Positions 1 through 23,485 of a stretch of 64,000 nucleotides of DNA are shown one piece after another. This DNA comes from Nocardioides scoriae (GTDB taxonomy: Bacteria; Actinomycetota; Actinomycetes; Propionibacteriales; Nocardioidaceae). The notes under the pieces are model-generated. The model saw only the letters and a list, made by a program, of their open reading frames with translations, did no database searches and was not told the origin of the DNA. The DNA is taken from positions 2,790,001-2,854,000 of the forward strand of contig NZ_LT629757.1 of assembly GCF_900104965.1 (NCBI RefSeq). Reading direction: 5' to 3'. Position 1 is the stretch's first letter; each line of letters begins with the position of its first letter. A program made the position numbers and the translations under genes.

Positions 1-136
1 TCTGGGCGTACGTGGCCGCCGCGTGCAGATCCCACTCCACGGCGGCGATCGGGGCGAATCGCCCGGTCGAAACGAAACCCGAGGTCAGCCCCCCACAGCC
101 GGCGAAAAGATCCATGAGCTTCGCTTCTCCCGACAC
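1..136 (-). CDS. C5-cytosine DNA methyltransferase, 5' end only (cut by window edge)
   Basis: Only the first 45 or so codons lie in the window; the gene continues past the left edge. The reverse strand reads MDLFAGCGGLTSGF, which is motif I (SAM binding) of C5-cytosine DNA methyltransferases, followed by AAVEWDLHAAATYA, matching the next conserved block of the family. The GTG at 136 gives seven residues before MDLFAG; the ATG at 115 is the alternative. It lies 41 bp past the vsr stop and is the last visible gene of the defence operon. The enzyme would methylate cytosine, the usual source of the T:G mismatches that Vsr repairs. Class 2 DISARM also uses a C5 methylase (DrmMII), but the Vsr partner suggests a Dcm-like modification enzyme. 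Catalytic PCQ motif and target-recognition domain are outside the window. Confidence 0.85.
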   Translation of the reverse strand, partial: MSGEAKLMDLFAGCGGLTSGFVSTGRFAPIAAVEWDLHAAATYAQ

Positions 137-177
137 GCCGGCAGCGTACGTGAGCGGGGGGACACTGTGCCGCAGGC

Positions 178-639
178 TCACCACGGGCGCACGGCTGCGA
201 CGACGCGCACGGCGGCCTCGCTCACCGCCTCGTGCTCCCACACCCGCACCACCGCCCATCCGGCGTCGATCAGCACGGCGTCCGTGTCACGGTCCCGCCG
301 GACGTTTCCGGCCAGCTTCTCCGACCACCAGGCGCCGTTCGCCTTGGGCGACGTGGCGTGCTCCGGGCACGCGTGCCAGAAGCACCCGTCGACGAACACA
401 GCCACCTGCCTGCGCGGGAAGGCGACGTCGATTGTTCTCCTGGGGCGGCCGGGGACCGGCCAGCCGATGCGGTAGCGCAGCCCGAGACGGTGCAGCTCAC
501 GGCGCAGCGCCAGCTCCGGAACGGTGCCCAGCCGTCTCTGCCGGCTCATGCGTGACGCGACCTCTGCGGAGGACGCTCTGACGGGTCCGTTTCGTAGCGG
601 CCCCGCCGCCGGCTCCCCGCCGTTCAGGCGAGCACCCAC
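178..639 (-). CDS. vsr: Very short patch repair (Vsr) endonuclease
   Basis: Vsr nicks next to T:G mismatches formed by deamination of 5-methylcytosine. The protein shows the family landmarks in order: an N-terminal helix with MSRQRRLGTVPELALRREL, the catalytic-Asp strand RRTIDVAF, the VAVFVDGCFWHACPEH block with metal-site Cys/His residues, WWSEKLAGNVRRDRDT, and the closing AGWAVVRVWEHE. The start is uncertain. The GTG at 639 (153 residues) keeps the conserved helix that begins before MSRQRR but overlaps the upstream gene by 16 bp. The ATG at 549 gives a shorter 123-residue form. It lies between a small winged-helix-like gene and a C5 methyltransferase, the usual Dcm-Vsr pairing, here carried inside a DISARM-type operon. 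The catalytic core is intact, unlike the second vsr copy near 28.8 kb. Confidence 0.88.
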   Translation of the reverse strand: MGARLNGGEPAAGPLRNGPVRASSAEVASRMSRQRRLGTVPELALRRELHRLGLRYRIGWPVPGRPRRTIDVAFPRRQVAVFVDGCFWHACPEHATSPKANGAWWSEKLAGNVRRDRDTDAVLIDAGWAVVRVWEHEAVSEAAVRVVAAVRPW

Positions 640-869
640 GGGGTCCCGGGGCGCCGGCCGTTCGCCGGTCGCAGAACACCGCTGTCGCGCAGCGTCTGCG
701 CCGCCCACCTGATGTCGTACTGCCAGGTGTAGAACAGGTCGCCGGAAGCGCGCAGATCATGCTCGTGACGCTGCCAGACCTCCCGTGCCACCTGCACCAC
801 CGTCCCGCTCCCACCGAGGTTCTTCAGCGCCTCGATCACCCAGCTCTTCAGGTCACTCTTGGTCGCCAC
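624..869 (-). CDS. Small winged-helix-like protein of the defence operon
   Basis: An 81-residue protein starting at GTG 869, with a purine-rich GGGGGAG about 4 bp upstream. It begins ATKSDLKSWVIEALKNLGGSGTVVQVAREVWQ and continues with HEHDLRASGDLFYTWQYDIRWAAQTLRDSGVLR, ending in a short basic tail. The pattern of helix, helix-turn-helix and tryptophan-rich helix with 'AAQTLRDSGVL' resembles the Mrr N-terminal-like winged helix often found beside restriction genes. I infer DNA binding; no catalytic residues are visible. It sits 15 bp downstream of the UvrD-like gene and overlaps vsr if the longer vsr start is used, so it is co-transcribed. It could be a specificity or recruitment subunit, or a regulator of the operon; the sequence alone does not decide. 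Confidence 0.6.
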   Translation of the reverse strand: MATKSDLKSWVIEALKNLGGSGTVVQVAREVWQRHEHDLRASGDLFYTWQYDIRWAAQTLRDSGVLRPANGRRPGTPWVLA

Positions 870-884
870 CGCTCCCCCATTCGC

Positions 885-3089
885 TCACGACGTAGCTCGT
901 TCGAAGAATTCGCTCGGGTCGCCCGTCCACAGCACAACGAGCTCGTCCCTTGCGCGCGTGGCCGCGACGTAGAACAGGGAGCGCTCTCGCAAGACGGCGT
1001 CGTCGCGTTCCTGATCGGTGAGTCCCTTGAGGACGTACTGCGCCGGCATGAGGCTGCTGTCCGCACCGAAGATGACGACACGGGAGAACTCCATGCCCTT
1101 GGCGCGGTGCATGGTCATCACGACGGGGTCCTTGGCCGTCTGCGCTTGGTTGGTCACCACGCGGACCTTGGTGCCGCGTTCGTCCAGACCGCGCGAAACC
1201 TGCTGAGCCTGGGTCGCGTCCCGCACGAGGATGCCGATCGAGTCCGGCGCCGCACCGGCAGTCACCCAGGCCCGCACCAGATCGGCGCAGGCGTCGAGCT
1301 CTTGGGTGAGGTTGTCCGCGCGGATGAGCTGTGGGGCGGGACCCAACCGGGCGGAGCGGTAGCCCGACACCTCGGCCGCGTCGGACTCCAGGTCGCTGTA
1401 GCCGCCGGTTTCGAGTACCTGGACCGCGAAATGGAGGTTTTGAGCCGTTGTCCGGTAGTTCAGCTGTAGACGCCTGGAACGCCCGACGATCTTGATGCCC
1501 AAGCGACCGAGCACCACTCGCTGGCCGTAGATCCGCTGATGGGCGTCCTCGGCTATGAAGAGGTCGTCCTGCCCCTCGGGTACGAGGGCTCTGAGAAACT
1601 GCCAGTGGGTCGGGCGGAGGTCCTGACCCTCGTCCACCAGCACGTGGTCGACGAGCGGCGATGACCTACGGCCGAGGGCCTCAGCGGCTACCGCCGCGGC
1701 CTCACCGAAGTCGATTCCTCCGTCGATACTCGATCGGGCGCGGTAGCTCTCGACGACCTTCCAGACCTCGGCGCGACGGACACGGTCCAGGGCGACGCCG
1801 CGGCCGGGTCGACGCGCCTTGAAGTAGCCGTCCCTCGACGTGATCCGACCGGGCACGACGACCATGTCGTACTCCGCCTGGAAGAACGCTGCGTGCCGCA
1901 GGTCTGCTGGGAGGTCGGCGTCGGAGGAGGCGACCGCGTCGCGCCACCGCTCGTCGCTGTCGACCAGGCGCGCTGCGATGCGTTCGCTGCGATCCCCGAG
2001 GACCGCCGAGACTGCGGCCGACATGTGAGCCGAGTTCGTCCGGATCGCCGCGCTGACTGCGGCATCGATGCCGACCACCAGCACACCGGCGTCGCCGAGC
2101 TTGTCCGCCAGCACGACCGTCGGGTCGAGCGAGCGGAGCTCGCGCTTCATACCCTCGGCCAGGGTCTTGGTGAAGGTCGTGAGCACGATGCGGGCCGACG
2201 GGTCTGCCCGGTGGAGGCGTCTGGCGCGATGCAAGAGGACCACCGTCTTGCCCGTGCCCGCACCCCCGGAAAGCCGGAACGGTCCCGACGAGGTCTGCTC
2301 GACGTAGCGGCGCTGCTCCGGGTGGAGGAACACCTTCCAGGCGGCGAAGTCGCCCTCCTCGATGATGCGCCGTAGCTCCTCGTCCTCCTCGACGAAGGTG
2401 AACTGCATCGCCGCAGCTGGGTGTTTGAGGCCGGCGATCAGGTTGGTGTCCTCGTCCGGCCCGTCGTCAGTGCGCATCTCCTCGATCGCCAACGAAGCCT
2501 TGACCTCGGCTACGGACTCACCGCTGGCCAGCGCAATCAGAGCCGATCCCTGCCAGGGCACCAGGCCGGCTGCGAGCTCGAGCAGGGCGTCCTCGTCGGA
2601 GGCTTCCAGAGCCCCCACTGCGATGTCGGACTCGAAGCCGAGCTCCTCGACCAGATCCTCGAGGGACAGGCCGAGCGCGACCAGCGGTGTCGCTGTAGTC
2701 GCGTCCCCGATGGCGGTGCCATGCTCGTCACCTGCACCGACACGGTCGGCCGGGGACTCGGCAGTCACCTGCGTGATCCCGGTGACGGGGTTGAACGTCA
2801 GCCGGACCTTCTTCGCGACGTCGATGGCGTTGTCGTGTGGCCACACCCCCAGGTACACGTAGTGGGCCTCGGTCCCCGAACCCTGAACCTTGAACAGCAC
2901 GGCGCGCCAGAACTGTGACACCCGGCCGGTGCGTACACGTGAGTCGGTGGAGTTCTGGATGGGCTCGATGTGTAGCCCGGGCAGGGCATCGTTGGCGCTC
3001 AGCTTTTCCAGGAAGGCGTACGCCTTGCCGCGCACCGAACCGTCCACCCTATTGCCGGCATCCTGCACGGCCATCACGATCTGGGGCAT
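885..3089 (-). CDS. UvrD/Rep-family helicase with RelE-like N-terminal domain
   Basis: A 734-residue superfamily 1 helicase. Residues about 20-100 contain 'KAYAFLEKLSANDALPGLHIEPIQ', then a pattern ending RVSQFWRAVLF and a hydrophobic 'YVYLGVWPHDNA' strand. This is the layout of RelE/ParE-type small basic folds. Residues about 150-230 form a helical acidic region. The ATPase core follows: LSGGAGTGKTVVLLHRA (Walker A, near 275), LVDEGQDL (Walker B, near 485), IAEDAHQRIYGQ, LQLNYRTT, TMHRAKGMEFSRVV and VAATRARDELVV, so all main SF1A motifs are present. The ATG at 3089 overlaps the upstream stop as TGATG. Helicases with this front end are often encoded in defence loci. Here it could unwind DNA for the neighbouring nuclease-bearing helicase. 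Whether the RelE-like part is an active RNase or only a binding module cannot be told. Confidence 0.82.
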   Translation of the reverse strand: MPQIVMAVQDAGNRVDGSVRGKAYAFLEKLSANDALPGLHIEPIQNSTDSRVRTGRVSQFWRAVLFKVQGSGTEAHYVYLGVWPHDNAIDVAKKVRLTFNPVTGITQVTAESPADRVGAGDEHGTAIGDATTATPLVALGLSLEDLVEELGFESDIAVGALEASDEDALLELAAGLVPWQGSALIALASGESVAEVKASLAIEEMRTDDGPDEDTNLIAGLKHPAAAMQFTFVEEDEELRRIIEEGDFAAWKVFLHPEQRRYVEQTSSGPFRLSGGAGTGKTVVLLHRARRLHRADPSARIVLTTFTKTLAEGMKRELRSLDPTVVLADKLGDAGVLVVGIDAAVSAAIRTNSAHMSAAVSAVLGDRSERIAARLVDSDERWRDAVASSDADLPADLRHAAFFQAEYDMVVVPGRITSRDGYFKARRPGRGVALDRVRRAEVWKVVESYRARSSIDGGIDFGEAAAVAAEALGRRSSPLVDHVLVDEGQDLRPTHWQFLRALVPEGQDDLFIAEDAHQRIYGQRVVLGRLGIKIVGRSRRLQLNYRTTAQNLHFAVQVLETGGYSDLESDAAEVSGYRSARLGPAPQLIRADNLTQELDACADLVRAWVTAGAAPDSIGILVRDATQAQQVSRGLDERGTKVRVVTNQAQTAKDPVVMTMHRAKGMEFSRVVIFGADSSLMPAQYVLKGLTDQERDDAVLRERSLFYVAATRARDELVVLWTGDPSEFFERATS

Positions 3090-6000
3090 CAGGCCTCTTC
3101 CTGTCGCAGTGCGTCACGGATGTCGTGGATCTCGGGTCGCACGATGCGCCAACCGGTGCCGGTGAGATCGGAGCGATCCTGGTCGTCGAGCCCGATGTCC
3201 ACCGCCACGGAGACATCGGGCCAGGCGAGGTCGATCGGGATTCCGTCCGGCCCCTCGTGCCCGATCTTCGCGCCGACCACGCCGGCCGCGTGGAGATCGA
3301 TGACCAGGGCACGCACCCCCGCGTCGGCGAAGGCGAGGTCGGCACGGAGCTCCTCCGGGACGTCGTCGTCGAGGTCTGTGCCGGCGGCAGCGCCGGCGTC
3401 GGCGTCGGCGCCGGCCAGGCTGGTCACGGTGATCGTCGTCGCGTGCGTGCGCAGGTTGAGCAGGTTCGAGAGGTGCAACCAATGACGCCACGCGTCCATG
3501 TGGGCCTGCCCCAGTCGGTGGTCCCCGTCGTCGAGCACCAGTGCGACCTCGCTGGCGGTGGCCGTACCGAGATTGCGAGCGAGGAGCGCGACCGTGTCGC
3601 CGACCCAGGCCCAGGAGGTGGGGGGTTCACCGGCGAGGGCTCCCCCGTCCAGCAGGCCTGCGGCCGCTTGCACCGCGGACTCGCCGCTGAGGACTCCGCG
3701 ATGCTGCGAGGACGCCATGGCGAACATCGGCAGCCAGTCGGCCAGCGCGGCGACGGTGGCCGGAGACGGATCCTGGATCCATCGGATCAGCCATCCCAGC
3801 GGACCGGCACGGACGAGATCGATCGCATCCGGGGTGAGTGCCCCCTGGGACATGCCCATGACGGCGCCGACCATCTGCTCGCCGAACCAGGGCGGCGCCG
3901 CTGGCGGATCGGTCAGGTCGCTCCAGGTGAGGGCGATGACCACGTGTCCCGCCTCGCGCAGTCGGGCGCGTTTGGCGACGTCGTCGTGGAGTCGGTTGAT
4001 CGCGGGGTTGGCGTGGAAGCGCCAACCGTCGCAGAAGATCATCACCGCAGGCACGGTGGTGTCGTTGCTGCGGAGGGCGAAGTCGGGCCGCGATCCCAGC
4101 ACGTTCTCCTGGGGATCGATCGTCCACACTCGTCCTCCGCCGAGCGTGATCACATAGCGGTTGCCGTTGGGTCCGGGCTTCTCGTCGACCGTCGCCCCCG
4201 CCGTCTTGAGGCGATCGCGGATCACCTGGCGGAACTTCTGCTCCAGGTGGCTCTCGGGGTCGAACCCGGTCGTTTCGTCGTCGGTCAGTGCCCATTCGCC
4301 GGTCGGGACGGGCTCGTCGGAGCTCCCGGTCCCGGCGTTGAGCAGGTCGCGCAGATGGCGTTCGGCGGCGACCCGCGAGACCCTGACCGCCCCGCCTGGG
4401 CCTGCGAACGGGAGCAGGCAGCGGTGGCACGACGCCCGTCCCTCGTCACGACAGGGACAGTCCCGCACCACTTCGTACGCCGCGAAGAGGACGGCGCGCA
4501 GCATCTCCGGCTCGGCGAGCTCCGCGAGGTAGCCGGTGCCACCCGGCACGACGTCGTGCAGCAGCAGCGCCGGCAGGTTGTCGGTCCCGCCCGGTGTGGG
4601 GTCCTCCACGAGTTCGACGGCCAGGTGGACGGGCGCACCGCCGATGTGATCGCGCAGACCCAGGAGCAGCGCCGCGGCGAGGCTGGGAGTGGCGAAGGAG
4701 TCGCCGAGCGACACCGACACTGGGAGCCGCACGACGAGCCCTTCGGTGCGCAGGATCCGCGACAGCGCGACCAGCCGGGTCTTCTCCTCCGCGGCGGCGC
4801 GAAGCGAGCACCACGGACGGTGCTCGGTGGCGTTGTTGCGATGGGTCGCGTTGTCGATCTGGCCGCACTCCGAGCACACCCGGAACAGCAGTGCGTTGCG
4901 CTCCTGACCTGCAACCGTGCGCAGTCCACCGTGACCCACCGAGCGGCCGAGATTCAGCCAACGGATGGTCAGGTCCTTCTGGTAGCGGACGCCGAAGCCG
5001 TAGCCGTCGACGTACCAGCGCCGCGACACCAGCGTCGGGTCGATGTCGGCCGCCACCACGATGTCGAAGGGCTCGCGCAGGCGGTCGTCGCGCGCGTCGT
5101 CGATCATCGCCTCGTCGCGCTTCATCATCGCGGACACCTGGTCGAGCTCCACCACGTCGAGCCGCTGCTTGACGTCGGCGAGGGCGGCGGAGCCGCAACG
5201 CGGACACGCGTCGATGCCCGCCGATCCTGGTGCGACCCGATCGGCGAAACCGCAGGCCGGGCAGAAGCACCAACGGTGGGCGGCTTCACCGTCTCGGCCC
5301 AGGTCGACGGCGTCGATGCTGATCTGGTGTCCCTGGGCGTAGAACGTGGCGCCCGGCGCGAAGTCCCGGAGCGCCAGGGCGGCACCGCGGTGATACGAGT
5401 ACGGCTCGGTCCGCCAGTCCCCCACGTCGGTGTCGAACCAGGACAGCGACACGTCGAGGGTGACCGTGTCGTCGAGGAGCGTGTAGTTCGGCAGCAGCCC
5501 GTGCGCTTCGAGGACCCCGATCCAGTGCTCTCCACGGAGGTCGGTTCGTTGCTTCAGCAGCAGCTTGCGCGCCGAGAGCGCTGACCTGAACGCCAGCTCG
5601 TCGTCCTCGGTGCGGGCCGGCGACTTCGCCCGACGCTCGAGCTCGGGCAGTGACTCCTGGATCGCATCGATGCGGTGACCGAGAGTCTCGACCTCGGTGC
5701 GCCAACGGAGCGACTCCTCGTGGACACGCACGGACAACGCGCTCGTGAGCGGCGTGCTGCCCGGGGTGACCCAGTCCCGCAGCGACTTCTCGGCCTCCTT
5801 GGTGAGGGAGGGGAACCCGTGCAGGAACGCGTCCAGATGGTCGAGGTCCTGCTCTCCGTCGACGACGAGCGCGTGCAGATAGGTGCCGACGGCGGGCGCC
5901 TCCATGGCCTCGGTCGCCGTCGTGGGATGCGGCGCATCGCCACGTCGAGCAAGGCGGTCGGCGAGCGAGGCGACGTACTGCCGACGGAGGATCTCCTCGG

Positions 6001-9000
6001 CGTCGAGGTAGGTCGCCGGCGGGCGGACCTGTCCGTTGATCATCGACAGCGGTTCGCCCAGCTGAGGCAGTTGGTCGCCGCGGCCCCGCACGAAGGCAAG
6101 GTCGAGAGCGTTGCCGGTGAGCCGGCCGGCACGTCCGACGCGCTGGAGGTACGCCGCGACCGAACGCGGCAGCGAGGCGAGCATGACGGTCGACAGGTCG
6201 CCGATGTCGATGCCCATCTCGAGGGTGGGGGTGGCGACCAGGACGTTGGGGGCCTCCGGGTCGTCGGCGCGGCTCTTGAAGCCGTTCTCGTAGGCCAGGC
6301 GCGTCTCGTCGTCGAGCAGGCTGGTGTGCTCCCGCGCGAGCACCCGCTGGATCTGCTTCGCGGCGTACATCCGTCGGTAGAAGTTGTCGACCAGCGGAGC
6401 CCGACGTCGACGTCCGGCGCACCGGGCCACATCGCACGGCGCGCCCTCGAGCTGCGCGGTCACGAGTGGGCTGCCCGGGGTGTGGGCCTGACAGGCGTCG
6501 CAGACGAGCAGGTGCTCGGTCGATCCAAGCGCTGCGTCGGGCACGACCTGCACGAGCACCTTGGTGGCGGAGATCTGATAGATCGTGGCTCCGCCCTGAG
6601 AGGTGGAGGTGAGCAGGACGTCGCGCTTCGCCAGGCGCTCGAGAAGCAGCCGCGCGAGTGTCGCGCCCTGGGTGGCGCCGGTCCCGAGCACCTTGCCGGC
6701 CCACACGGCGTACCAGCTGCGCGGTGTCGTGACCGGGTCGAGGTCGACGTCGCGGGTCAGCTTCTCGCCGCCGACGCGGGGGTAGCCCGGAGCGGCGCGC
6801 CCGGCGGGGAACGCGGGCATGCCCTCACCCTTGGGCCGACCACCCCAGACGTGGTAGCGGGCGCCGTCGTGGTCGACGTAGCGGCGGAACCACTCGTGCT
6901 CGATCGCACCGCGCTCCCGCATGCGCTCGAGCACGCCACGCGCCCATTGCACGAGCTGGGTGTCCTCGGGCGCGAAGGCGCCGAGCGTGCCGGTCCCGCC
7001 CGCGTCGGCGACCGCCTGCCTCGCCGCGGCGAGCAGCGTCGCCTCGGGTACGTCGACGTGGGCGGTCACGCTGCCGGTCCGCTCGAGGGTGCGGCCGACC
7101 CGGGACTGGAGGCCGAACTCGAGGACCGCGTCGAGGAGGAGGCGGCGGCGCACCATCGTGCGCACCTTGGGGGTGACCCGGGCAAGGGTGGCCGCCTCCC
7201 AGAAGCCCCGGAGCTTGCTCCACCCGGCAAGGTCGGGCGGGAGGATGCGGTGTCGGTTCTGCCGGTCGTCGCCGGCCGACTCGATGACCCGGTCGACGAG
7301 CGCGTCAAGAGTACGGGGGTGGTCGTTCACGGCGCTGCGGAGCACCGAGCGCAGCGTGAGGCCGTGCGAGCGGCTCTGCACGAAGCCTGCGCGGTGCGCG
7401 GCGTCCTGGACGCTGTCGGTGAAGACCAGCGCCTTCTTCTCCGCCGGGTCGAGATGCGGATCGCCGAACAGTGTCGACAGCGTCACCGAGAGCTGGGTGG
7501 CGACCGCGGAGCCGACGAAGCGGATGGCGTCGCGGGTGCGACACGACGGGCAGGTGTCGTCCTTGGACGCCTTGCCGGCCTCGTCGCCGACGTGCATGAG
7601 GACGGGGAGGACTCGACCCTCGCGCAGGTCGGCCTCGACTGTCGGTGGCGCCGTGAGGAAGCGCCGCTCGCGGGTGTGGAACCAGCGCAGTCCCTCGACG
7701 GGCGCGGCGTCGTCCAACGCGGAGAACGCCTCGGCCTCCGGCAGAGCGAGCAGGACGGCCCGGAAGCGCTCGTCCTTGGCCAGGGCACGCTTGCGGATCG
7801 TGTCGTCGTCGGTGTCGAGATCCGTGCCGGTAGGGGCGAGTGCGACGCCCCATCCCGAGCGTCCGCAGTGACGACAGAAGAGGGACGGGAACCACGGCTC
7901 GGAGCCGACGACGCCCTCGTCCTGCACGATCTCGCCGTCGTCGAACCAGCGATAGCGCACGTCGAGCGAGGCCGAGCGGTCGAGTCGGGACAGCTCGCGG
8001 ATCCACAGGTGCAGCTCGATCGACGGCATGACCCGGCCGTGCGCGGCCCGCAGGTGGCTCAGCGCGGCGACGAAGCACAGCAGGTAGGCCTCTGCCTCCT
8101 CCTGCTCGAGGCCCGCCCCTGCCACCGCGACGTCGGCGAGGTCGGCCACGTCCGCGGCTGCTGCGGCAGTGCGGATCAGCCGACCGGTCAGGGGGTGCGC
8201 GCGGAAGAGATCGAGGTCGTCGAGGCCGGTGGACGACCGATCCGGGAAGAGCACACCGGCGACCGCTGCGGTGATCGCTTCCCCTGTCGGATCCTGGCCG
8301 AGGGCGTCGACGGCTGCTGCCACGTCGCGTGCGGCACGAGCACTGTCCTCGATCGTCACGCCGGCGTCGGACACGGCGACCAGCGACGGCGCCTCCCACT
8401 GCTCGGCGGTCACGCGCGACTCGGTGACGACACAGTCCGCGCCGATGGGCTCCCCGAAGACGGTGGTGGCGAAGTCGGCGATGGCCTGACCGTCGCCTTC
8501 TCCGCCGAGCGTCGCCGACGTCGCCACGGGGGTGATGCGTCCGAGGGGACGGTCGCGGTCGTCGTCGGTGAGGTCGGCGTGGCTGTCGGGCCAGTGGCTC
8601 TTGAGCGTCAGCCCGAGACGTCGGAGGAGCATGGCCACGTCGGTGCCCTGGGCGCCGTCGTAGGTGTGGAACTCGTCGAGCACGAGGTAGCGCAGGCTCA
8701 ATGCGCTCTGCTCCCAGATCCGAGCATCTGCGTGCCGCAGCAGCAGCTGGTCGAGCATCTTGTAGTTGGTGAGGAGGATGTCGGGGGCGCTGCTGCGGAT
8801 GACGTCACGGTCGGTGATCAGGCTGTCGGCCGAGACCTTCGTGCGCGTCGGGCCCGCCTGTCCGGTGTAGAGCGCGGCGGTGACGCCGGCCAGGGCCTCG
8901 TGGGTGGTGATCATCTCCGCGAGACGCCCGGCCTGGTCGTTGGCCAACGCATTCATCGGATAGAGCAGCAGCGCCTTGGTGCCCTGCTCCCCCACCCGCT

Positions 9001-14009: not shown

Positions 14010-16886
14010 TCAGACCGCCCTCCCGTCCGCGGTGGGGAAGACGACCAGGAGCGGTCGGACCGTGCGCTGGTCGGGCCGCAGCGACAGCGCCACGTCGCGC
14101 TCGACCTCGACCCGCGATCGCCGGTCGCGCAGACCGGCACGCTGGGTGAGCTCCAGAGCAAGTTCGTCCCAGGTGTCCGTGCGCGCGGCCCACCGTTCGA
14201 CCCTGGCCGTCACCTCGGCCTCCACGGCGTCGAGCGTCATGTCCAACGAGGCCCGAGCGGCCGCGACCGCGGGCGCCACGTGACGTCGCAACTCCATGAT
14301 GTCGGGCGTGCGGCCGCGATTGACGAGCGACCCGGTGATCCCTAGTGCGATGAGAGCGGCCGAGGCGTCTTGGAAGGTCTCGACCGGGCTGAAGGTCAGG
14401 TTGCCCGGGCTGGGGAAGGACACCACCGCGAAGCTGGACGTGACGATCTGGCCGCGGGCGTTCATCAGCGCCGCGTGGGTGAGGACGGACACGTGCTCCA
14501 CCGGTCCCTCGACGGCGAAGATCTGGTTGCGCCCCAGCGCAGCGAGCGCGCGGTCGGCTGCCCAGTCCAGCGCCGGATGCAGTGGCGCGAGGAAGTGCGC
14601 CTCCGGCCACAGCGACGTCGAGCCTGCGCCACGGGCTTCTTCGATGGCGCGTCGACCGCGGTCCGACGAGGTGGCGAGCTTCATCGACTCGGTGACTCGA
14701 CGCTCGCGGAGATAACTCTGGGGCAGCACGTCGAGGCGTTGGCAGAGGTCCGGCGGCGGGTTGAATTCCGCGACCGCGTGCCCGGGGTGCACTCGCCAGC
14801 CGACGCCGTTCGGGGGTGGGGAGGCAGGGGTCTCGAGAGCCTCGTCGAGCGCGTCGGTGAGAAACGCGACCCGATCGGGATAGAGCCCGGATCCCGACGG
14901 CGCCTCGGACGCACGCTCCGCCTGGTGAGCAGTCGGGGCGTCGGCTACGGCGAACAGCGCCATCAAGGCGTCCAGGTCACCGCCCTGTGCCACCTGCTCC
15001 GGGCTGCGGACCGTGTCGTCCAGATCGCGCTCGCCCGCGAGCACCTGTCGGATCGCCTCCTCCTCGGCGGCCACGTCGTGCTTGCCCATCAAGGAGGCGG
15101 AGTCCCCGAGCGCTTTGTGGGCCTCGTGCTCCTTCTGCACCAGACGCTCGAGGATGCGCACGTCGCCGGCGAAGCCTTCGCTGGTCGGGTCCAGCAACAG
15201 CGTGGTGATGACAGGTCGGTGGCGCTGGCCGTAGCGGTCGATGCGCCCGTTGCGCTGCTCGATCCGGATGAGGCTCCACGGGATGTCGAAGTGGACGAGG
15301 TGGTGGCACTGGAGATGCAGGTTGACGCCCTCGGACGCCACGTCGCCGGTGACCAGGACACGGATCGGCGACGACTCCTGCTTGAAGGACTCGACGACCT
15401 CCCGCTGGTCCACGTCGGACAGCCCTCCGTGCAGGACGACCACCTCGTCGGACGAGAATGCCAGGTCGCTCATCAGGTTCTCCCGCAGCCAGGTCAGGGT
15501 CGCCACCCGCTCGGCGAACACCACCACGCGCTCGCTCGCCCCCGGGCGGACACCGATCCCGCCGAAGTGGTCGACCAGGGCGGCGTACTTGGCCGAACCG
15601 GACTCGACACAGTCCCGGTTCAACTCGCGCAGACGCTCCAACGCACGGCGCTCACGACCGGCCTGGACGGTGTCGCCGGTGATGCGCTTGGTCCTCTCGA
15701 GGACCGAGGCCTCGAACGCGGCCGGGGACGACAGGAACGCCTTGGCGAGAGTCCACGGGAAGAGCTTGGCGTTGGCCCCGGAGTACGGCGACCGGCCGGA
15801 CTCCGGATGCAACCAGACGGTGTCGAGCTCCTCCGCCAGCGCGTTCTCGGCGGCCGACGCCGGCACCAGGACGTTGCGGGGGTCGTGCCTCTCGGGCCAT
15901 TTGCCGCCGACCACTGCCGCGACGTCGGGGCTGTGGCGGTGACGCCGGATGACCAGGCGGCGCACCTCGTCCTCGACGAGGGTGCCGTCGGGCCTGACCG
16001 CGCTCGGCTCCAGCATCGAGACCAGCTCAGCGAACGACTCGGCCTTGCCGTTGTGCGGGGTCGCCGAGGCCAGGATCAGCGCGTCGCTGCGGGTCGAGAG
16101 CAGACGCGCGAGCCGGTTGTTCTGCGACGTCGAGTTGGTGACGTTGTGGGACTCGTCGATGACCACGGCGTCCCAGTGCTGCTTCTCCAGGTGGGAGAGG
16201 TAGGCATCGCTCTTGAGGGTGTCGATGGAGACGATCACGCGCTTGAAGAAGGAGAAGGGGTTGCGGTTCGCCGGCAGCTTCTGACGGATCCGCTGGATGC
16301 CGACCGAGTCGAGACGCACGAAGGGCAACGCGAACCGCGTCCACAGCTCGAACTGCATCTGCTCGAGCACGTGTCGCGGCGTCACGACGAGGATCCGTTC
16401 GCCTCGGCCGCGGCGTACCAGCTCGGACAGGATCATGCCGATCTCGAGGGTCTTGCCCAGGCCCACGGCGTCCGCGAGCAGGATGCGTGGGCGCAGGTTG
16501 TCCCGGCTCAGCGCCTGGGTGACCGCCTTGAGCTGGTAGTCCAGCGGGTCGGCCAGGCCCTGACGGGCGACCGTGAGGTTCGGGTCGTCCACCGGGACCG
16601 CGGTGCGTCGGAGCGTTGACTCCAGCCACAGGCGGGCGCGCCGGTGGCCCGGGGAGTCGTCCGCCACGACTTCAGCGGCCGCCGGATCGAGGACCTCGAT
16701 GTCGTCCAGCGCCGTGCTGAAGATCGCTTCGGTGTCCCGCACCAGCTCGGACAGGCCCTGGACCTCGACGAACCACCCGTCGGTCGCACGCTCGGCGCGG
16801 TTGACCAGCCAGGTCTCGTCGCGGACGACGACGACCGATCCGACGGGCGCGTGGAACGCCTCGCCAGCGTGCCGGAGCTCGGTCAC
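14010..16886 (-). CDS. drmD: DISARM SNF2-like helicase DrmD
   Basis: A 958-residue SNF2/RapA-like superfamily 2 ATPase. It shows ADAVGLGKTLEIGMILSEL (Walker A, near residue 137), ILVVTPRHVLEQMQFE (motif Ia), AVVIDESHNV (DESH box, near 244), LILASATPHNGK (motif III), VLVTGDVASEGVNLHLQCHH and IRIEQRNGRIDRYGQ (motifs V and VI), followed by a long C-terminal region. DrmD is the marker gene of class 1 DISARM and always accompanies DrmMI there. I chose GTG 16886 because GAGGG lies about 10 bp upstream and it falls 17 bp after the drmB stop. An open frame continues upstream to 17096, but that part overlaps the conserved cysteine end of drmB and reads as low-complexity Arg/Gly/Pro. The gene abuts drmMI with no spacer. 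Confidence 0.87.
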   Translation of the reverse strand: MTELRHAGEAFHAPVGSVVVVRDETWLVNRAERATDGWFVEVQGLSELVRDTEAIFSTALDDIEVLDPAAAEVVADDSPGHRRARLWLESTLRRTAVPVDDPNLTVARQGLADPLDYQLKAVTQALSRDNLRPRILLADAVGLGKTLEIGMILSELVRRGRGERILVVTPRHVLEQMQFELWTRFALPFVRLDSVGIQRIRQKLPANRNPFSFFKRVIVSIDTLKSDAYLSHLEKQHWDAVVIDESHNVTNSTSQNNRLARLLSTRSDALILASATPHNGKAESFAELVSMLEPSAVRPDGTLVEDEVRRLVIRRHRHSPDVAAVVGGKWPERHDPRNVLVPASAAENALAEELDTVWLHPESGRSPYSGANAKLFPWTLAKAFLSSPAAFEASVLERTKRITGDTVQAGRERRALERLRELNRDCVESGSAKYAALVDHFGGIGVRPGASERVVVFAERVATLTWLRENLMSDLAFSSDEVVVLHGGLSDVDQREVVESFKQESSPIRVLVTGDVASEGVNLHLQCHHLVHFDIPWSLIRIEQRNGRIDRYGQRHRPVITTLLLDPTSEGFAGDVRILERLVQKEHEAHKALGDSASLMGKHDVAAEEEAIRQVLAGERDLDDTVRSPEQVAQGGDLDALMALFAVADAPTAHQAERASEAPSGSGLYPDRVAFLTDALDEALETPASPPPNGVGWRVHPGHAVAEFNPPPDLCQRLDVLPQSYLRERRVTESMKLATSSDRGRRAIEEARGAGSTSLWPEAHFLAPLHPALDWAADRALAALGRNQIFAVEGPVEHVSVLTHAALMNARGQIVTSSFAVVSFPSPGNLTFSPVETFQDASAALIALGITGSLVNRGRTPDIMELRRHVAPAVAAARASLDMTLDAVEAEVTARVERWAARTDTWDELALELTQRAGLRDRRSRVEVERDVALSLRPDQRTVRPLLVVFPTADGRAV

Positions 16887-16903
16887 GTTGTCGATCCCTC
16901 CGG

Positions 16904-18625
16904 TCAGTCGACGAACGAGTTCAGGAAGCCGTCCTCGGGACGGTCGGGCAACCCCACGAGGCAAGCACGGTCGAGCTCCCGGTTGGCGAGCTCGCAGCTC
17001 GTCTCCGGCAGGAGCTGGCACGCATGGCAGGCCGCCAAGTTGAGCGCGTCCGCGCCACCCGAGACCGTCTCGATGCACACCGGATCGGAGGAGCACCAGC
17101 GTGCACGCCTCGTCGCGGACAGCACGAGTGGCCAGACGCGATCTGCGCGCGACTGCGCTGCCAGACCACCGAGGCTGCCCGCCGAGTCGGCGGACGCGGT
17201 GTAGATCAGGATCCCGGCCTGCCCCTCCTTGCTGTAGACACGCTCGCGCAGCGAAGCCACCGGGTAGCCGGCATCCAGGCTGAGCTCGGTGAGCAGTGCG
17301 TGGGCCAGCGAGTGCAGCAGCAGCTCGCGGGGACCGATCCGCTTGACGTGCGGCACACCCATTGCTTCGGCCCGGATGCGGTAGGCCTCCTCGATCGCCT
17401 TGGCCCGGGACTTCGCGAAGTCTCCTGCCTCCCAGGTCGCCAGGGCCGTCTCGTCGATCTGGAAGAAGACACCTTCACCGAGCACTTCGATGGCGGGCAG
17501 CCAGGTGGGTTTCTGTGCGGTCAGCGGTGCGACGCGGTTGCCCTCCTCCCCCTCACTCCACGGGGTCACGCGGGTGAAGCCCTGCAGAGCGCGCACCTCC
17601 CGTAGTCGCGCCACCTCCGACACCTGCGTCAAGAGCCGATTCGCCTCGTCGGGCAGACCCTCGACCCGAGTACAGACGAACTGCTGACGGGGGTCCTTCT
17701 CCGGGCGCCCCTTGACCAGGGCGCCGTACTCGTCCGCTCGCAGATCGGCGTCGTCTGGGATCTCGTCCGAGGCCTCACCACGCATCACGAGGATCGCCTG
17801 AACCAGGTCGTCGACCTCGACGCCGGCCTCCTTGTCCATATCCATCCCGACCAGTGTCGCGGCCAGTGCCGCGGCAGGGATGTGCTGCACCATCGGCCAG
17901 TACTTGTTGATCGTCCGGTGCGCTCCCTCCGACCACGGAGGAATGGAGATCGCCGACCTGACCGACGCGAACCAGACGTTGGAGGCACCTCGCTGCAGGG
18001 TGCGCGGCGTCTGGTCGCAGGTGTCCGCGGCCGCGCCGCGCAACCAGGGACGGTTGCCCCAGCACTTGCTGATCCCGATCAGCGCTTGGGGCGAGAACGA
18101 CCCGGCCAGACTGCGCCCGGGTGCCCCGCACGAGCACGAGATGACGATGTCGCCCAGGGACGAGCTCTGGCCTCGGGTGCGCAGGAAGAGCTGGTGGCTC
18201 TTGTCGGCATCCGGCCGCTCACCCTTGTGCACCCAGGCGGAGTAGGGGAAGTCGTCGATGTGCCCACCGGGGCAGCAGATGACGAACCGGGAGGGCACGA
18301 GCGTGCGCTGACAACGGTCGCATTCGTTTCCGTCCCAGCCGCAGAAGTCGTTCAGCCGCCCGAGACGGTGACACTTCGGGCAGTGGAACATCCGTGGGAA
18401 CCGCACGACCGGCAGATCCTTCTTGCCCCTCGACGGAGGCATCCGAAAGGTACGCACCTCCATGGAGCGAGCCAAGCGGGGCTCGGTCACCTCTGGGCAC
18501 TGGCTCTCGGTCCAGTCGTCCGTGCCGAGCAACATGAAGCTCTCGTCCCGAGCCGGGAAGAGCGCCCCCACACCGTACGTCGTCACCATCTGGCTTCGAC
18601 GGGCCTCGGCCACTTTACGGACCAT
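16904..18625 (-). CDS. drmB: DISARM protein DrmB (DUF1998)
   Basis: A 573-residue protein that begins MVRKVAEARRSQMVTTYGVGALFPARDESFML, the typical DrmB opening. It is rich in paired cysteines: FHCPKCHRLGRLNDFCGW..CDRCQRT, CCPGGHIDDFPYSAWVHKG and CSCGAPGRSL. The DUF1998 end reads CIETVSGGADALNLAACHACQLLPETSC. In known class 1 DISARM, DrmB pairs with DrmA to form a DNA-sensing helicase complex that recognises invading DNA. ATG 18625 overlaps the drmA stop as TGATG; a longer in-frame start at 18709 would overlap drmA by 85 bp and is unlikely. It is followed after 17 bp by drmD. The DNA-binding and zinc roles come from the family; the cysteine motifs are visible. Confidence 0.88.
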   Translation of the reverse strand: MVRKVAEARRSQMVTTYGVGALFPARDESFMLLGTDDWTESQCPEVTEPRLARSMEVRTFRMPPSRGKKDLPVVRFPRMFHCPKCHRLGRLNDFCGWDGNECDRCQRTLVPSRFVICCPGGHIDDFPYSAWVHKGERPDADKSHQLFLRTRGQSSSLGDIVISCSCGAPGRSLAGSFSPQALIGISKCWGNRPWLRGAAADTCDQTPRTLQRGASNVWFASVRSAISIPPWSEGAHRTINKYWPMVQHIPAAALAATLVGMDMDKEAGVEVDDLVQAILVMRGEASDEIPDDADLRADEYGALVKGRPEKDPRQQFVCTRVEGLPDEANRLLTQVSEVARLREVRALQGFTRVTPWSEGEEGNRVAPLTAQKPTWLPAIEVLGEGVFFQIDETALATWEAGDFAKSRAKAIEEAYRIRAEAMGVPHVKRIGPRELLLHSLAHALLTELSLDAGYPVASLRERVYSKEGQAGILIYTASADSAGSLGGLAAQSRADRVWPLVLSATRRARWCSSDPVCIETVSGGADALNLAACHACQLLPETSCELANRELDRACLVGLPDRPEDGFLNSFVD

Positions 18626-21600
18626 CAGCTCTTCGATCCCTTCGTCGGAGGTACGAGGAAGAGGGCGGTCGTCGCATCGACCTCTCGGAGACTCGTCATC
18701 GTGGCCCATGCCGGATCGCTCACCGGGAACACCAGCTCGTCCTCGTTGAGCACCATGCCGGGATCGACGAGCAGGAACCCGCTGGACTCACGCCAGCCCG
18801 GGTACTTCAAGCTGCCGGCATCGGCTGCATCCGCCCAGGCTTCGATCAGTGCCGTCATCTGCGAGCGCACCTTGTCCACCTCGTCCGGCGCGATGCTGTG
18901 CGCACGGTCGAGGAACGACTGCAGAGCGGACTCCAGAGCGGACCGCTGCGTCTTGATCGCTCCTGCCGCGCCATCGCTCGCGAGCCCGTCGACGAGCAGT
19001 CGTGCGTAGGACACCAGCACGCCGTGGAGGCCGCGGTCACGCGCCCTTGCCGCGAACGGCGTCGCGCTCGTCGCCTCCACCTGGCGGTAGAGAGCCCGGT
19101 GGTAGGAACCGAAGCTTTCGTAGTGCGAGAGGTCCCGGGACCGGGCAGCGTTGTAGAGCACGACAACGAGACCCGGGTGCTGACGCCCGACCCGGCTCGT
19201 CGACTGGATGTACTCCGCCGTTGCCTGGGGCTGTCCCATCACGACCATGAGCCCGAGACGATCCACGTCCAGACCGACGGAGATCATGTTGGTCGCCAGC
19301 ACGACATCCTGTGTCTCGGTGTCGGGCAGCGCACGGCTGAGGCTCGCGAGCGCCTCGGGAATCTCCGCCGAGTCGACACGTGACGTCAGCTCGCCCGGCT
19401 CGGGAATCTCTCTGACGTCCGTGCCCATTCGGCCGGCGAGCACCTTGAGCCGGTCCGGGACGTCGTCCAGCACCTGCATGTAGGCACCTCCGAGAACACG
19501 GAGGCTGTTGAAGTAACCGAGCAATGTCCAGTAGGCGTCGCGCACCTTCTCGTCGCCGGGGAGGTCCTGGGCGGCCTGGAGCAGCGCGGCGTAGGTGCGG
19601 ACCATGAGTGTCGTGTGGCTCGTCGAGGGAGCCGCGATGCCGAGATACCGCCGTGTGCCCTTCTTGTCCGGCGATGCCTGGACCGAGAAGTACGAGTCGG
19701 TGTTGTCGAGGCCGGGGGGTGGGAACTGACGCGAGTCCCGGTCGAAGACCGCACGGACCTGCTTCTTCGCGCGCCGAATGGTCGCTGTGGACGCCACCAC
19801 CTTGGGCCGTGCGATTCCGGTGCAGGCGGCGTCCACGGCCGCCTCGTAGAGCCCGACCATGGTGCCGAGCGGTCCGCTGATGAGGTGCAGCTCGTCCTGG
19901 ACGATGAGGTCGGGCGGTGGGTTCGCGCCATCGCGCGAGAACAGACTGCGCACCTGCTCCCGCCACGCCATCATCGCGAACTTGTCGACCGTCCCGATCA
20001 CCAGGGACGGTCGCTCTCGATAGACGTCCTCGTCGACGAGATGCACCGGCAGCCCATCCGCGAACTCACAGGCCGCGCCCCCGCACCGCACCACCATGCG
20101 ATCCGGCGACTTCTTGATGAGGTAGTCGTCCAGACCCAGGTCGTGCCCGCACACGGGGCAATGGAGCAGCTGGTACGGGTTGCCCTCGTCCTTCGGATTG
20201 ATGCCGTCCCGGAGCTTGTTCAATGCCCTGCGTGCCTCGGAGACCTTGAGCGGCGTGGCGCCACGCCCGACCCACAGACCCAACGAGATCGGCTCCGCGT
20301 TCTTCATCTGCTCACGCCGGATCGACTCCAGCGCGCAGATCAGGCCGGCGGCCCGCTCGAACTGCTGGATGGTGAGCAGCCTCAGCGTGTAGCGCATGAT
20401 CACGGACACCCCGCCGTGGGCAGGATTGCGAAGACGGCGAAGAAGAATGGAGAACCCGATCAGACCGAGGTAGGCCTCGGTCTTGCCACCGCCGGTGGGG
20501 AACCACAGCAGGTCCGCGATCTCACGGTCCGGCGAGGTCGGGTCGATCAGCCCCTCGAGGTTGAGCAGAATGAACGCCATCTGGAAGGGACGCCAGGTCT
20601 GCGGCCGCTCCTCGATCCCCCGCTGGCGATCCTGCCGGGTGCGCTGCAGGGCCATCGCCGCATTCATGAGCCTGAATGCGCGCTCCGCATCAGGATCGGC
20701 ACCCATGCGCTCGATGCCGCGCTCCATGCGGTCCGCTGCCTGAGCCGCGTCCGCCAAGTGCCTTCGCCCGGTCGCTTGCAACTCCGGAGCCAGTGTCGCG
20801 ATCTCGCCTTCGCGCTCGGTGATCCAATCGCGGTAGGACGCGACGAGGGCCACGAGCGGCTCGACGCCACCCGTCGCCAGCTCGTCCATCCTCATCACGA
20901 TCCCCGAACCACCTGCCGGCTCGGCCAGCGGCACGTCGTACGACGGGGTGAAGGTGGTGGCGAGCTCCTTCGTCGGCCCGTCGTCGGACCACTTGACCGC
21001 GCAGCCGTGACCCACGGCCATGTCCTCGACGTCGCGGAAGAGCAGGGCGTAGGAGTCGAGATCCTCGTCGTCCAGGCCGGCCGAGCTTTCCGCCCGGCGT
21101 GCGCTGAACGACCCTTCGTCCACCCGCGCGGTGATGGACGGTTGGAACCAACAGTGAGCGTCCTTGCGAGCGTTCTTTTCCGGGACACCGACATTGAGCA
21201 GAACGCACGTGACTGAGGAAGTGCCGCCCCGGGGCTCACGCACGACGACCAGGAGATCCAGGTCCTCCGCGAGATGATGGGTCCGCCGGTCGACGATCCC
21301 CGTGTCGACGCGAACGGGGTCCGGACTGACGGCCACCCGATCCCACGTTCCGTCCCCGTCCTCCGCCTCGCGATAGCGCGCAGCCTCCACCTCGACGACG
21401 ACGTGCGGCACCAGGCCCGGGTCGACCGCGAACGTCATCCCCATGGTCGAGGGATAGCGCATGTGCGACAGAGCAACCGCGGGGTCGAACGACGCATCGG
21501 CACCACCTGCCCCGCCGGATTCGGCACTGTCAGGATCGTCGACTTCTTCCTCCATCACGGCGTCGTCCCGAGGATGAAGGATCCCGACGGCGAAGCGGTC

Positions 21601-21708
21601 CAGAGGCGGCTCGGACAGCTTCGCTGCCCCCGCTCCACCGATCAGGTCCTGCTCCAGCGATGCGACCAGGGAGTTGCGAAAGTCGTACCACGCTGCAATT
21701 TCGCCCAC
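18625..21708 (-). CDS. drmA: DISARM helicase DrmA
   Basis: A 1,027-residue superfamily 2 helicase, first gene of the operon. Motifs: LLWFPTGGGKTEAYLGLIGF (Walker A, near residue 401), VIMRYTLRLLTIQQFERA (Ia), LHCPVCGHDL (a zinc-type cysteine pair), LIVQDELHLISGPLGTM (DELH box, near 604), VASTATIRRAKKQ (III), VLATNMISVGLDVDRLGLM (V) and STSRVGRQHPG (VI). In DISARM, DrmA translocates on DNA and works with DrmB to detect unmodified incoming DNA. The frame opens with GTG 21708 (VGEIAAWYDFRNSLV); an ATG 11 bp upstream is out of frame. The start is therefore less certain than the rest. The 282-bp gap upstream, shared with the divergent gene at 21991, should hold the operon promoter. Confidence 0.88.
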   Translation of the reverse strand: MGEIAAWYDFRNSLVASLEQDLIGGAGAAKLSEPPLDRFAVGILHPRDDAVMEEEVDDPDSAESGGAGGADASFDPAVALSHMRYPSTMGMTFAVDPGLVPHVVVEVEAARYREAEDGDGTWDRVAVSPDPVRVDTGIVDRRTHHLAEDLDLLVVVREPRGGTSSVTCVLLNVGVPEKNARKDAHCWFQPSITARVDEGSFSARRAESSAGLDDEDLDSYALLFRDVEDMAVGHGCAVKWSDDGPTKELATTFTPSYDVPLAEPAGGSGIVMRMDELATGGVEPLVALVASYRDWITEREGEIATLAPELQATGRRHLADAAQAADRMERGIERMGADPDAERAFRLMNAAMALQRTRQDRQRGIEERPQTWRPFQMAFILLNLEGLIDPTSPDREIADLLWFPTGGGKTEAYLGLIGFSILLRRLRNPAHGGVSVIMRYTLRLLTIQQFERAAGLICALESIRREQMKNAEPISLGLWVGRGATPLKVSEARRALNKLRDGINPKDEGNPYQLLHCPVCGHDLGLDDYLIKKSPDRMVVRCGGAACEFADGLPVHLVDEDVYRERPSLVIGTVDKFAMMAWREQVRSLFSRDGANPPPDLIVQDELHLISGPLGTMVGLYEAAVDAACTGIARPKVVASTATIRRAKKQVRAVFDRDSRQFPPPGLDNTDSYFSVQASPDKKGTRRYLGIAAPSTSHTTLMVRTYAALLQAAQDLPGDEKVRDAYWTLLGYFNSLRVLGGAYMQVLDDVPDRLKVLAGRMGTDVREIPEPGELTSRVDSAEIPEALASLSRALPDTETQDVVLATNMISVGLDVDRLGLMVVMGQPQATAEYIQSTSRVGRQHPGLVVVLYNAARSRDLSHYESFGSYHRALYRQVEATSATPFAARARDRGLHGVLVSYARLLVDGLASDGAAGAIKTQRSALESALQSFLDRAHSIAPDEVDKVRSQMTALIEAWADAADAGSLKYPGWRESSGFLLVDPGMVLNEDELVFPVSDPAWATMTSLREVDATTALFLVPPTKGSKS

Positions 21709-22561: not shown

Positions 22562-23485
22562 ATGGCCCGCGCCGACCACATCTACGTCCGCAGACCCGCG
22601 GGATACACCCATCACGGTGTCGACTGCGGTGACGGCACGGTCATCCACTTCACGGGCGAGCCCGGTCAACAAAAGATCAACGCCTCGATCGCTCGGACCT
22701 CGCTCGAGGAGTTCCTCGACGGAGGCAAGCTGCTGGTCAGGGAGTACGGAAAGCGCAACGATGTCGACACCACGATCGGACGGGCAGAGTCCAGGATCAG
22801 TGAGACGGGCTACCACCTCGTCGTCAACAACTGCGAACACTTCGCCACCTGGTGCTGCACCGGCAAGCCCGTCAGCGAGCAGGTCCGGGGGGTCGGCAGC
22901 CTCACCGCGCACGGCGCCGTCGCCACTGGCGCTGCTGCGGCCACGTCGGGAGTCGTCGCCGGGCTCGGTGTGACCGCGGGACTGAGCGGCCCGGGCATCA
23001 TGAGCGGTCTCGCCGCGGCCGGTAGCGCAGTCGGTGGTGCGGCGAGCGGCCCAGCCGTTCTCGCGGCCCTTCCGGCCGTCGTGAGCATCGGCATCACCAA
23101 CGTGGCGCTTCGCGACGACGAGACACTCCCGCCGAGCGAGCGAGCCTCGCGCAGGGACGGACGATGGGCGTCCGTAGCGGGTGCGGGAGGTGCCATGGCC
23201 GGAGGCATCGGCGCGATCAGCGCGGCCGGTACCGTCAGTGGACTCAGCGGAGCAGGGATAGCCAGCGGGCTCGCGGGCATCGGTGCGCTTGCAGGCGGAG
23301 GGATGGCCGCAGGGACCGCCGTGGTCGTCGCAGCACCCGCAGTGGCGGCTGCCGCAATCGGCACGGGGGTCTATCTAGCGGGGCGCAAGCTACGAACCCG
23401 CAAGCGCGCCGAGCCGCGGACCCCGATCACGTCCGAGGTGGAGGGGCTGCAGTCCACGGACAAGCGAGATCACTCGGAGGGCTGA
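22562..23485 (+). CDS. LRAT-domain (NlpC/P60-like) protein with duplicated glycine-zipper membrane segments
   Basis: A 307-residue protein. The N-terminal 100 residues form an LRAT (lecithin:retinol acyltransferase-like) domain: YTHHGVDCGDGTVIHFTG supplies His18 and His29, and VVNNCEHFATWC supplies the putative nucleophile Cys91. Enzymes of this fold are thiol acyltransferases or phospholipases that act on membrane lipids. Residues about 118-180 and 205-270 are glycine/alanine-rich and hydrophobic. They contain two matching units, GLSGPGIMSGLA (140-151) and GLSGAGIASGLA (227-238), each followed by a GG-rich stretch and a second hydrophobic run. Such glycine zippers commonly pack as transmembrane hairpins. 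GGAGGAG at 22549-22555 fixes the ATG 22562 start. Next to a defence operon, a membrane-acting suicide effector is plausible but unproven; a lipid-remodelling housekeeping enzyme is the alternative. Confidence 0.8.
   Translation: MARADHIYVRRPAGYTHHGVDCGDGTVIHFTGEPGQQKINASIARTSLEEFLDGGKLLVREYGKRNDVDTTIGRAESRISETGYHLVVNNCEHFATWCCTGKPVSEQVRGVGSLTAHGAVATGAAAATSGVVAGLGVTAGLSGPGIMSGLAAAGSAVGGAASGPAVLAALPAVVSIGITNVALRDDETLPPSERASRRDGRWASVAGAGGAMAGGIGAISAAGTVSGLSGAGIASGLAGIGALAGGGMAAGTAVVVAAPAVAAAAIGTGVYLAGRKLRTRKRAEPRTPITSEVEGLQSTDKRDHSEG

Follow-up and report, generated by a model that had tools for sequence, protein, structure and literature searches.

A run of eleven genes in the actinobacterium Nocardioides scoriae occupies about 29 kb on one strand, with intergenic gaps all of about 90 bases or less, and we consider it fairly probable that this run holds two anti-phage modules, ARMADA Type II and a DISARM-like system lacking DrmC, which give layered and probably synergistic defence. 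The run lies mainly in the 64,000-nucleotide stretch analyzed here (contig NZ_LT629757.1, positions 2,790,001 to 2,854,000; "the window"), part of a single-contig genome of 4.06 Mb. On the minus strand, from 21708 downwards, the order is drmA, drmB, armA, armB, armC, armD, a small open reading frame (ORF), vsr, and dcm. Left of the window edge the operon goes on with the rest of dcm, uvrD2, and a gene for a GHKL-SF2 protein, here called tmtA-like. In the window, ARMADA is nested between the two halves of the DISARM-like system (module 2). The gene set and coordinates of a preliminary description, made from the sequence alone, are right; its reading of the run as an expanded class 1 DISARM operon is revised below. 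No account of a drmAB-UvrD-TmtA-like system, or of its combination with ARMADA, was found in the literature searched. The DISARM-like class and its recurrent composite with ARMADA are what is new here, whereas ARMADA II is already known.

The ARMADA Type II genes

Excerpts of a recent preprint (Bell et al. 2025, PMC12458937) describe ARMADA II as four genes in strict ABCD order: ArmA is a BrxHII/RapA helicase, ArmB a PglX-like methylase, ArmC a YprA helicase with a Vsr-type nuclease at its end, and ArmD a RelE domain fused to a GajB-like UvrD. According to the same excerpts, non-abortive anti-phage defence in E. coli requires all four genes, and ArmA and ArmB share homology with DrmD and DrmMI. 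The window's four arm genes agree with this description one by one. ArmB contains an NPPW motif; the C-terminal end of ArmC aligns with the Vsr family (hhalign probability 80.6), with conserved D, H, N-R, and K positions; and the N terminus of ArmD has a predicted RelE/YoeB/YafQ fold. A Walker A motif is present in the six ATPases inspected (DrmA, ArmA, ArmC, ArmD, UvrD2, and the TmtA-like protein). Those other than the UvrD types were also searched for a simple Walker B pattern, which DrmA and the TmtA-like protein have but ArmA and ArmC did not show.

The gene order also recurs. ArmB has at least 5032 homologues at an E value of 1e-20 or better among the 7992 scored matches listed, and the best 119 besides itself share 57-64% identity over 98-100% of its length. 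From 506 loci that encode an ArmB relative in GTDB species genomes, we kept the best 80 with 10-kb flanks; as the top-ranked loci, these are biased towards relatives of the window. All four arm genes lie inside the fetched stretch in 58 of the 80 loci, and their order is ABCD on one strand in 58 of 58. One or more arm genes were not found in the stretch in the other 22, often because the stretch or the contig ends. Because of the gene-by-gene fit and this recurring order, we assign armA to armD, on sequence grounds, as a complete ARMADA Type II system.

This assignment changes three of the earlier identifications. The gene taken for drmD reaches 321.8 bits against the DrmD model, whose cut-off is 610, and is armA. 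The gene taken for drmMI scores 192.1 bits with the best DrmMI model versus 1376.5 bits over its whole length with PDLC03611 (REase_MTase_IIG), and is armB. The giant helicase, proposed to replace DrmC, is armC and belongs to ARMADA. The claim that the locus encodes both adenine and cytosine methylases holds, with the adenine-type armB and the C5 methylase gene dcm both present.

A candidate DISARM-like system without DrmC

From DrmA and DrmB together with UvrD, the TmtA-like protein, the C5 methylase, and Vsr, we infer a DISARM-like system that lacks DrmC, on the basis of gene content, order, domains, recurrence, and phylogeny. Sampling 328 genomes of the class gave 14 loci (13 genomes), besides the window, with a DrmA relative at 760 bits or more, a limit chosen after seeing the data, at a score gap from 761 to 620 bits. 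Their surroundings, up to 18 kb from DrmA, were scanned with hidden Markov models (HMMs) built in this analysis. DrmB adjoins DrmA in all 14 loci, and UvrD2 adjoins DrmA on the opposite side, likewise in 14 of 14 (0-25 bases). The TmtA-like gene stands directly before UvrD2 in 13; the 14th locus (G278) has it about 29 kb off, beyond ARMADA. Twelve loci have a C5-methylase match (8 strong, at 455 bits or more; 4 weak, at 95-130 bits), and 10 have Vsr at 180 bits or more. Window-type drmAB usually keeps company with a UvrD helicase and a GHKL-SF2 helicase, here both encoded left of the window, and with Dcm and Vsr.

DrmC is absent from this set. The window's run contains no drmC, and there is no PLDc_2 match within about 313 kb. 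Similarly, none of the 14 relatives has a same-strand DrmC-type ORF within 4 kb, as judged by motif rather than profile (the HKD motif, H.K....D, in an ORF of 180-520 residues). The preliminary description was correct in seeing one co-directional set without DrmC. It had also considered a drmC gene just past the left edge, where the rest of dcm, uvrD2, and the tmtA-like gene are found instead. In a phylum sample of 396 genomes, DrmB is above its cut-off in 24 (25 loci). An HKD ORF directly follows DrmB in 9 of these 25 loci, none of which has a TmtA-like neighbour. The full-length GHKL-SF2 protein is encoded in 4 of the 396 genomes, with DrmB on the same contig in all 4.

Phylogeny also sets this group apart. 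In DrmA and DrmB trees of 42 rows each, with L236 left out of the DrmB tree as truncated, the window falls in an 11-row clade with Shimodaira-Hasegawa-like approximate likelihood ratio test supports of 100 and 97. All rows of this clade have TmtA-like and/or UvrD2 neighbours, and the 11 DrmC-linked rows fall elsewhere. Eight of the 11 clade rows were chosen for nearby ARMADA, so their clustering by ARMADA is no proof. TmtA-like neighbours also mark a second clade (L196-L199, L237-L239), in which UvrD2 was not called; L237-L239 and L227 have TmtA-like matches without ARMADA, that of L227 covering the helicase half only. The proposal of a distinct DISARM branch survives insofar as DrmA and DrmB branch apart from the DrmC rows, but its reading as class 1 DISARM with added genes is not supported.

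The TmtA-like protein joins an N-terminal sacsin/HSP90-like (GHKL) ATPase and a C-terminal RadD-like SF2 helicase in one chain. SACS is matched in 27 of 27 homologues, HATPase_c similarity is also seen, and the best PDB match of the helicase part is 6jde (E 2.5e-30). The PADLOC TmtA models, which we take to be those of Tiamat, match at best with 158.6 bits and over residues 13-423 of 1546 only, the SF2 part matching other models. The protein thus resembles Tiamat in its N-terminal part, but it has no full-length TmtA match and its gene sits in an operon, not alone. Dcm carries the PCQ, ENV, and QxRxR motifs of C5 methylases. DrmA retains the helicase core. A class 1 DrmA would carry an N-terminal EVE-like domain and a trigger loop; the alignment to Serratia DrmA (7s9v) starts at residue 194 of 7s9v, inside the published trigger loop (176-232), with the earlier part unaligned, and the window's DrmA is apparently shorter at the N terminus than the Serratia protein.

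Compared with class 1 and class 2 DISARM, the locus has DrmA and DrmB that pass the curated models and a methylase. It differs in having no DrmC, in its SNF2 and PglX-like genes, which are ARMADA's, and in its UvrD and GHKL-SF2 partners. With the GHKL (MORC/paraMORC) systems in passages of Iyer 2008 (PMC2292703) it shares a GHKL ATPase, an SF2 helicase, Dcm, and Vsr in one neighbourhood. Here, by contrast, GHKL and SF2 are fused and coupled to DrmAB and UvrD, and the GHKL similarity is to sacsin and HATPase_c only.

A protein of about 690-720 residues is encoded divergently, before the tmtA-like gene, at L261:8610-10775, with similar genes in G761, G653, G688, and G410; these loci lack ARMADA. 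The L261 protein has an N-terminal HTH_3 domain and, judging from this, could be a regulator of module 2.

Linkage of the two modules

The two modules meet repeatedly. G561 carries vsr-dcm-tmtA-uvrD2-drmA-drmB-armA-armB-armC-armD on one strand, and the window has the same ten genes, with vsr-dcm-uvrD2-tmtA placed behind armD. G728 has tmtA-uvrD2-drmA-drmB-armABCD, and a second module-2 copy without its own ARMADA nearby. In G278, ARMADA lies between drmAB and the tmtA-like gene, as in the window, and in G719 the modules are adjacent on opposite strands. The annotation of Tsukamurella tyrosinosolvens NZ_LR134452.1 reads, in order, DNA cytosine methyltransferase, hypothetical, UvrD, helicase-related, DUF1998, DEAD helicase, "restriction endonuclease subunit M," a Zn-binding helicase spanning two ORFs, and UvrD (checked with HMMs), so that armA follows drmB there too. 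Between drmB and armA, on one strand, lie 18 bases in the window and 35 in Tsukamurella; the gap is 93 bases in G561 and 99 in G728.

Among the 80 ARMADA-locus genomes, DrmB is above cut-off in 18 (19 copies), and it lies no more than 20 kb from an ARMADA gene in 11 of the 80 loci (L061, L074, L082, L083, L084, L098, L099, L104, L109, L114, and, at 18.5 kb, L116). Random placement, in a calculation that ignores operon length, island clustering, and kinship, predicts about 0.16 (0.156) linked loci and gives P = 2e-15 for 10 or more within 20 kb; the test was run for at least 10, and the eleventh locus (L116) was added to the count later. The pairing recurs too often for chance placement. An ArmB tree of 85 proteins requires 11 changes to account for the 16 linked rows, and starred branches force at least 8 of these, indicating that the association was gained or lost many times. 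Nine short-contig loci were scored neither linked nor unlinked in this tree, and four of the 16 linked rows (G561, G728, G719, and L276, the last on a long branch) were added because they are linked. The recurring side-by-side placement suggests that the modules work together.

Several observations weigh against such a composite. No DrmB_fam match lies within 20 kb in 69 of the 80 ARMADA loci, a count limited by contig ends, and 9 of the 14 module-2 loci lack any ARMADA gene out to 18 kb. Four of the 14 have ARMADA alongside, and the fifth of the remainder is the second copy in G728, near the first copy's ARMADA. Four of the 11 linked loci come from related Microbacteriaceae and have another arrangement, with ARMADA on the other strand. 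Tsukamurella NZ_LR134452.1 has no TmtA-like gene, and the window's own uvrD2 and tmtA-like gene sit away from drmAB, unlike those of the 14 relatives. Four of the 12 C5-methylase matches are the weak ones, Vsr was not found in four of the 14 loci, and alphaproteobacterial plasmids have UvrD-DrmA-DrmB with other partners. Further, the joint function of the modules, a single transcript, and every step of the mechanism proposed below are what we infer. The pairing is a tendency, not a rule.

The alternative that survives best, though we find it rather doubtful, is that of two independent systems, in which ARMADA was inserted into a module-2 operon within a defence island, perhaps with read-through and with no joint function. 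It draws on the fact that each module mostly occurs without the other, on the island-like occurrence of ARMADA beside DruE-type and divergent DrmAB genes as well, and on the GmrSD gene next door. The 11 linked loci versus about 0.16 (an expectation that ignores island clustering and kinship), the changes on the ArmB tree, and the short one-strand gaps between drmB and armA argue against it. The preliminary description had allowed for a chance tandem of two systems; by its own condition the locus is a tandem of two systems, though one that recurs too often to be put down to chance.

We regard it as unlikely, too, that Vsr and Dcm constitute an orphan methylase-repair pair, carried along with the island but standing outside module 2. 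Dcm-Vsr pairs occur in several defence contexts in passages of Iyer 2008 (PMC2292703) and Hudaiberdiev 2017 (PMC5704561), the latter tying Dcm and Vsr to UvrD-Cas4 fusions and, separately, YprA helicases to Cas4. Around window-type DrmAB their place and strand vary, with Vsr missing from the four loci noted above and a strong Dcm match in only 8 of 14. These facts would suit an orphan pair, but Vsr in 10 of 14 loci and a C5-methylase match in 12 of 14 do not, nor does the inclusion of a cytosine methylase, DrmMII, among the DISARM methylases in the text excerpted from Bravo 2022 (PMC9142583).

A single expanded class 1 DISARM, with armA and armB as DrmD and DrmMI and the giant helicase in place of DrmC, is very improbable: drmA and drmB pass curated DISARM models and DrmD and DrmMI are homologues of ArmA and ArmB (also in the excerpts of PMC12458937), but their DrmD and DrmMI scores are far under those of ARMADA-type families, two more partners lie left of the window, module 2 mostly stands without ARMADA, and the ArmA/ArmB pair stands without DrmB_fam in those 69 loci, because of which we do not treat drmAB and the arm genes as one such system. 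Of the class 1 proteins, DrmA and DrmB pass their NCBIfam cut-offs, and no gene qualifies as DrmD, DrmMI, or DrmC, the last being typical of the class but reportedly non-essential.

Possible mechanism, other partners, and neighbouring genes

For the two-module composite, we propose a mechanism based on Serratia DrmAB, the GHKL proposal of Iyer 2008, and the domain make-up of the TmtA-like protein. In excerpts of Bravo 2022 (PMC9142583), Serratia DrmAB binds 5'-overhang DNA and is held inactive by its own trigger loop; DrmC does not co-purify with it and appears to be dispensable. Passages of Iyer 2008 (PMC2292703) propose that GHKL ATPases of restriction operons with SF2 helicases, Dcm, and Vsr reorganize protein complexes and DNA, and compare them to MutL, the partner of UvrD. 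In our scheme, ArmB (adenine-type) and Dcm (cytosine) would mark host DNA as self. By analogy with Serratia DISARM, DrmAB would load on 5' single-stranded ends of incoming or replicating phage DNA; DrmAB and UvrD would recognize DNA ends or forks, which UvrD would unwind. The TmtA-like GHKL-SF2 protein may be both a clamp gated by ATP and a translocase, in line with the proposal made for paraMORC restriction systems. Cutting would fall to Vsr and the Vsr-type domain of ArmC, not to a phospholipase-D nuclease, while ARMADA would act on related DNA intermediates through its own YprA helicase. The least certain points are physical contact between the modules and whether Vsr cuts phage DNA or only repairs T:G mismatches left by Dcm.

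Synergy between the modules is probable by analogy with ARMADA II and Druantia III in E. coli. There, too, ARMADA II is paired with a second YprA-helicase system, and synergy is reported (excerpts of PMC12458937); the partner here is instead DrmAB-based. The window's ARMADA shares with the published ARMADA II the armABCD order, the Vsr-type C terminus of ArmC, and the RelE-like N terminus of ArmD. It differs in that one half of a DrmAB-based system lies on either side of it, whereas the pairings described in those excerpts are with Druantia III and Zorya II, not DrmAB.

Other partners were also seen. A second, DruE-like YprA gene, called with an HMM of this analysis, is present in 10 of the 80 ARMADA loci (L045, L051, L052, L065, L088, L089, L094, L095, L096, and L106), and 6 of 6 tested against PADLOC match DruE best. 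These genes by actinobacterial ARMADA II echo the Druantia-ARMADA pairing of E. coli. A divergent DrmA/DrmB pair is present in 8 of the 80, six of them with a Vsr gene. In L097 (read as L208), the one of the eight that was checked, and in G204, which is not among the 80, sigma-70 regions and a match to MzaA are seen in the gene in front. At L208:426-11734 and L125:1221-7857, the order is a sigma-70-like MzaA-type protein, divergent DrmA and DrmB, a Vsr gene, and then ARMADA; the L208 protein has its sigma part fused to an SF1 helicase that bears a Vsr-type MTES_1575 domain. Counting the 11 loci with DrmB_fam within 20 kb, the 10 DruE-like, and the 8 divergent, a second YprA-family helicase system accompanies ARMADA in 29 of 80 loci. 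In Mycolicibacterium peregrinum, a 1270-residue RecD-like helicase (L206:9557-13369) lies between drmB and armA and matches the PADLOC candidate PDC-S68 over its full length (1425.6 bits).

Our broadest claim is a joint one, and we hold it with the scales about level: that an undescribed DISARM class, in which the phospholipase-D nuclease is traded for a chaperone-type ATPase motor, docks repeatedly onto ARMADA II; that the composite is a ten-gene immune machine that has two YprA helicases and sets two kinds of methylation mark; and that ARMADA II has a tendency to be paired with another system of the YprA helicase family. The best PADLOC models read the locus as DISARM pieces, a IIG enzyme, and Gabija-like and Druantia-like genes, and therefore the ARMADA operon and the drmAB-UvrD-TmtA-like system are both liable to be misfiled. 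Should the second system prove real, it would show a way in which DISARM may function in the absence of DrmC, add an HSP90-like ATPase to DISARM, and make the coupling of DrmAB to DNA destruction testable with a different partner set. Its repeated coupling to ARMADA provides naturally occurring composites in which to ask why systems built on YprA helicases pair.

Table 1. Genes of the composite run; positions are those of the window, or of L013 for genes left of the window
Feature	Position	Strand	Description	Evidence
drmA	18625..21708	-	YprA-type SF2 helicase, 1027 residues, module 2	NCBIfam DISARM_DrmAS 962.5 bits (cut-off 950); PADLOC DrmA 791 bits
drmB	16904..18625	-	DUF1998/MZB protein; start overlaps drmA stop	NCBIfam DrmB_fam 473.8 bits (cut-off 240)
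armA	14010..16886	-	BrxHII/RapA-like SNF2 helicase	Pfam SNF2-rel_dom and Helicase_C
armB	9381..14009	-	PglX-like, N6-adenine-type methylase, 1542 residues	PADLOC PDLC03611 (REase_MTase_IIG), whole length; NPPW and GSGAF motifs
armC	3089..9388	-	YprA-family giant helicase, 2099 residues, with putative C-terminal Vsr-type nuclease domain	Pfam DEAD, Helicase_C, MZB; hhalign to Vsr
armD	885..3089	-	RelE-like domain fused to UvrD/GajB-like helicase	Pfam UvrD; predicted RelE-type fold
small ORF	624..869	-	81 residues; open frame 15 bases past armD stop	no Pfam match
vsr	178..549	-	Vsr endonuclease	NCBIfam vsr 109.2 bits (cut-off 97.85); Pfam Vsr from ATG at 549; conserved columns
dcm, 5' end	1..136	-	C5-cytosine methylase; start GTG 136 or 181; gene ends at L013:15084	Pfam DNA_methylase
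uvrD2	L013:13364-15076		UvrD-type helicase; starts GTG at L013:15076, 7 bases past dcm end	Pfam UvrD
tmtA-like	L013:8644-13278		GHKL-SF2; 1546-residue frame, 1544 residues from ATG at L013:13278	Pfam ResIII/DEAD, SACS

Beyond the run, a GmrSD-type restriction gene at L013:6591-8273 on the plus strand is convergent with the tmtA-like gene, and L114 has another GmrSD gene between armB and armC. Closely upstream of drmA, on the opposite strand, the window encodes an LRAT-domain protein of 307 residues (22562-23485, plus; 89.9 bits), whose neighbours are small genes without Pfam matches. The island's housekeeping edge seems to be marked by an ABC-transporter permease-like gene and a pterin-binding (DHPS-like) gene at 24478-28211 on the minus strand. 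A 90-residue frame at 28730-29002, also minus, resembles both ends of Vsr, with the catalytic middle absent (Pfam Vsr 21.5 bits, cut-off 27), and appears from its sequence to be a decayed Vsr remnant.

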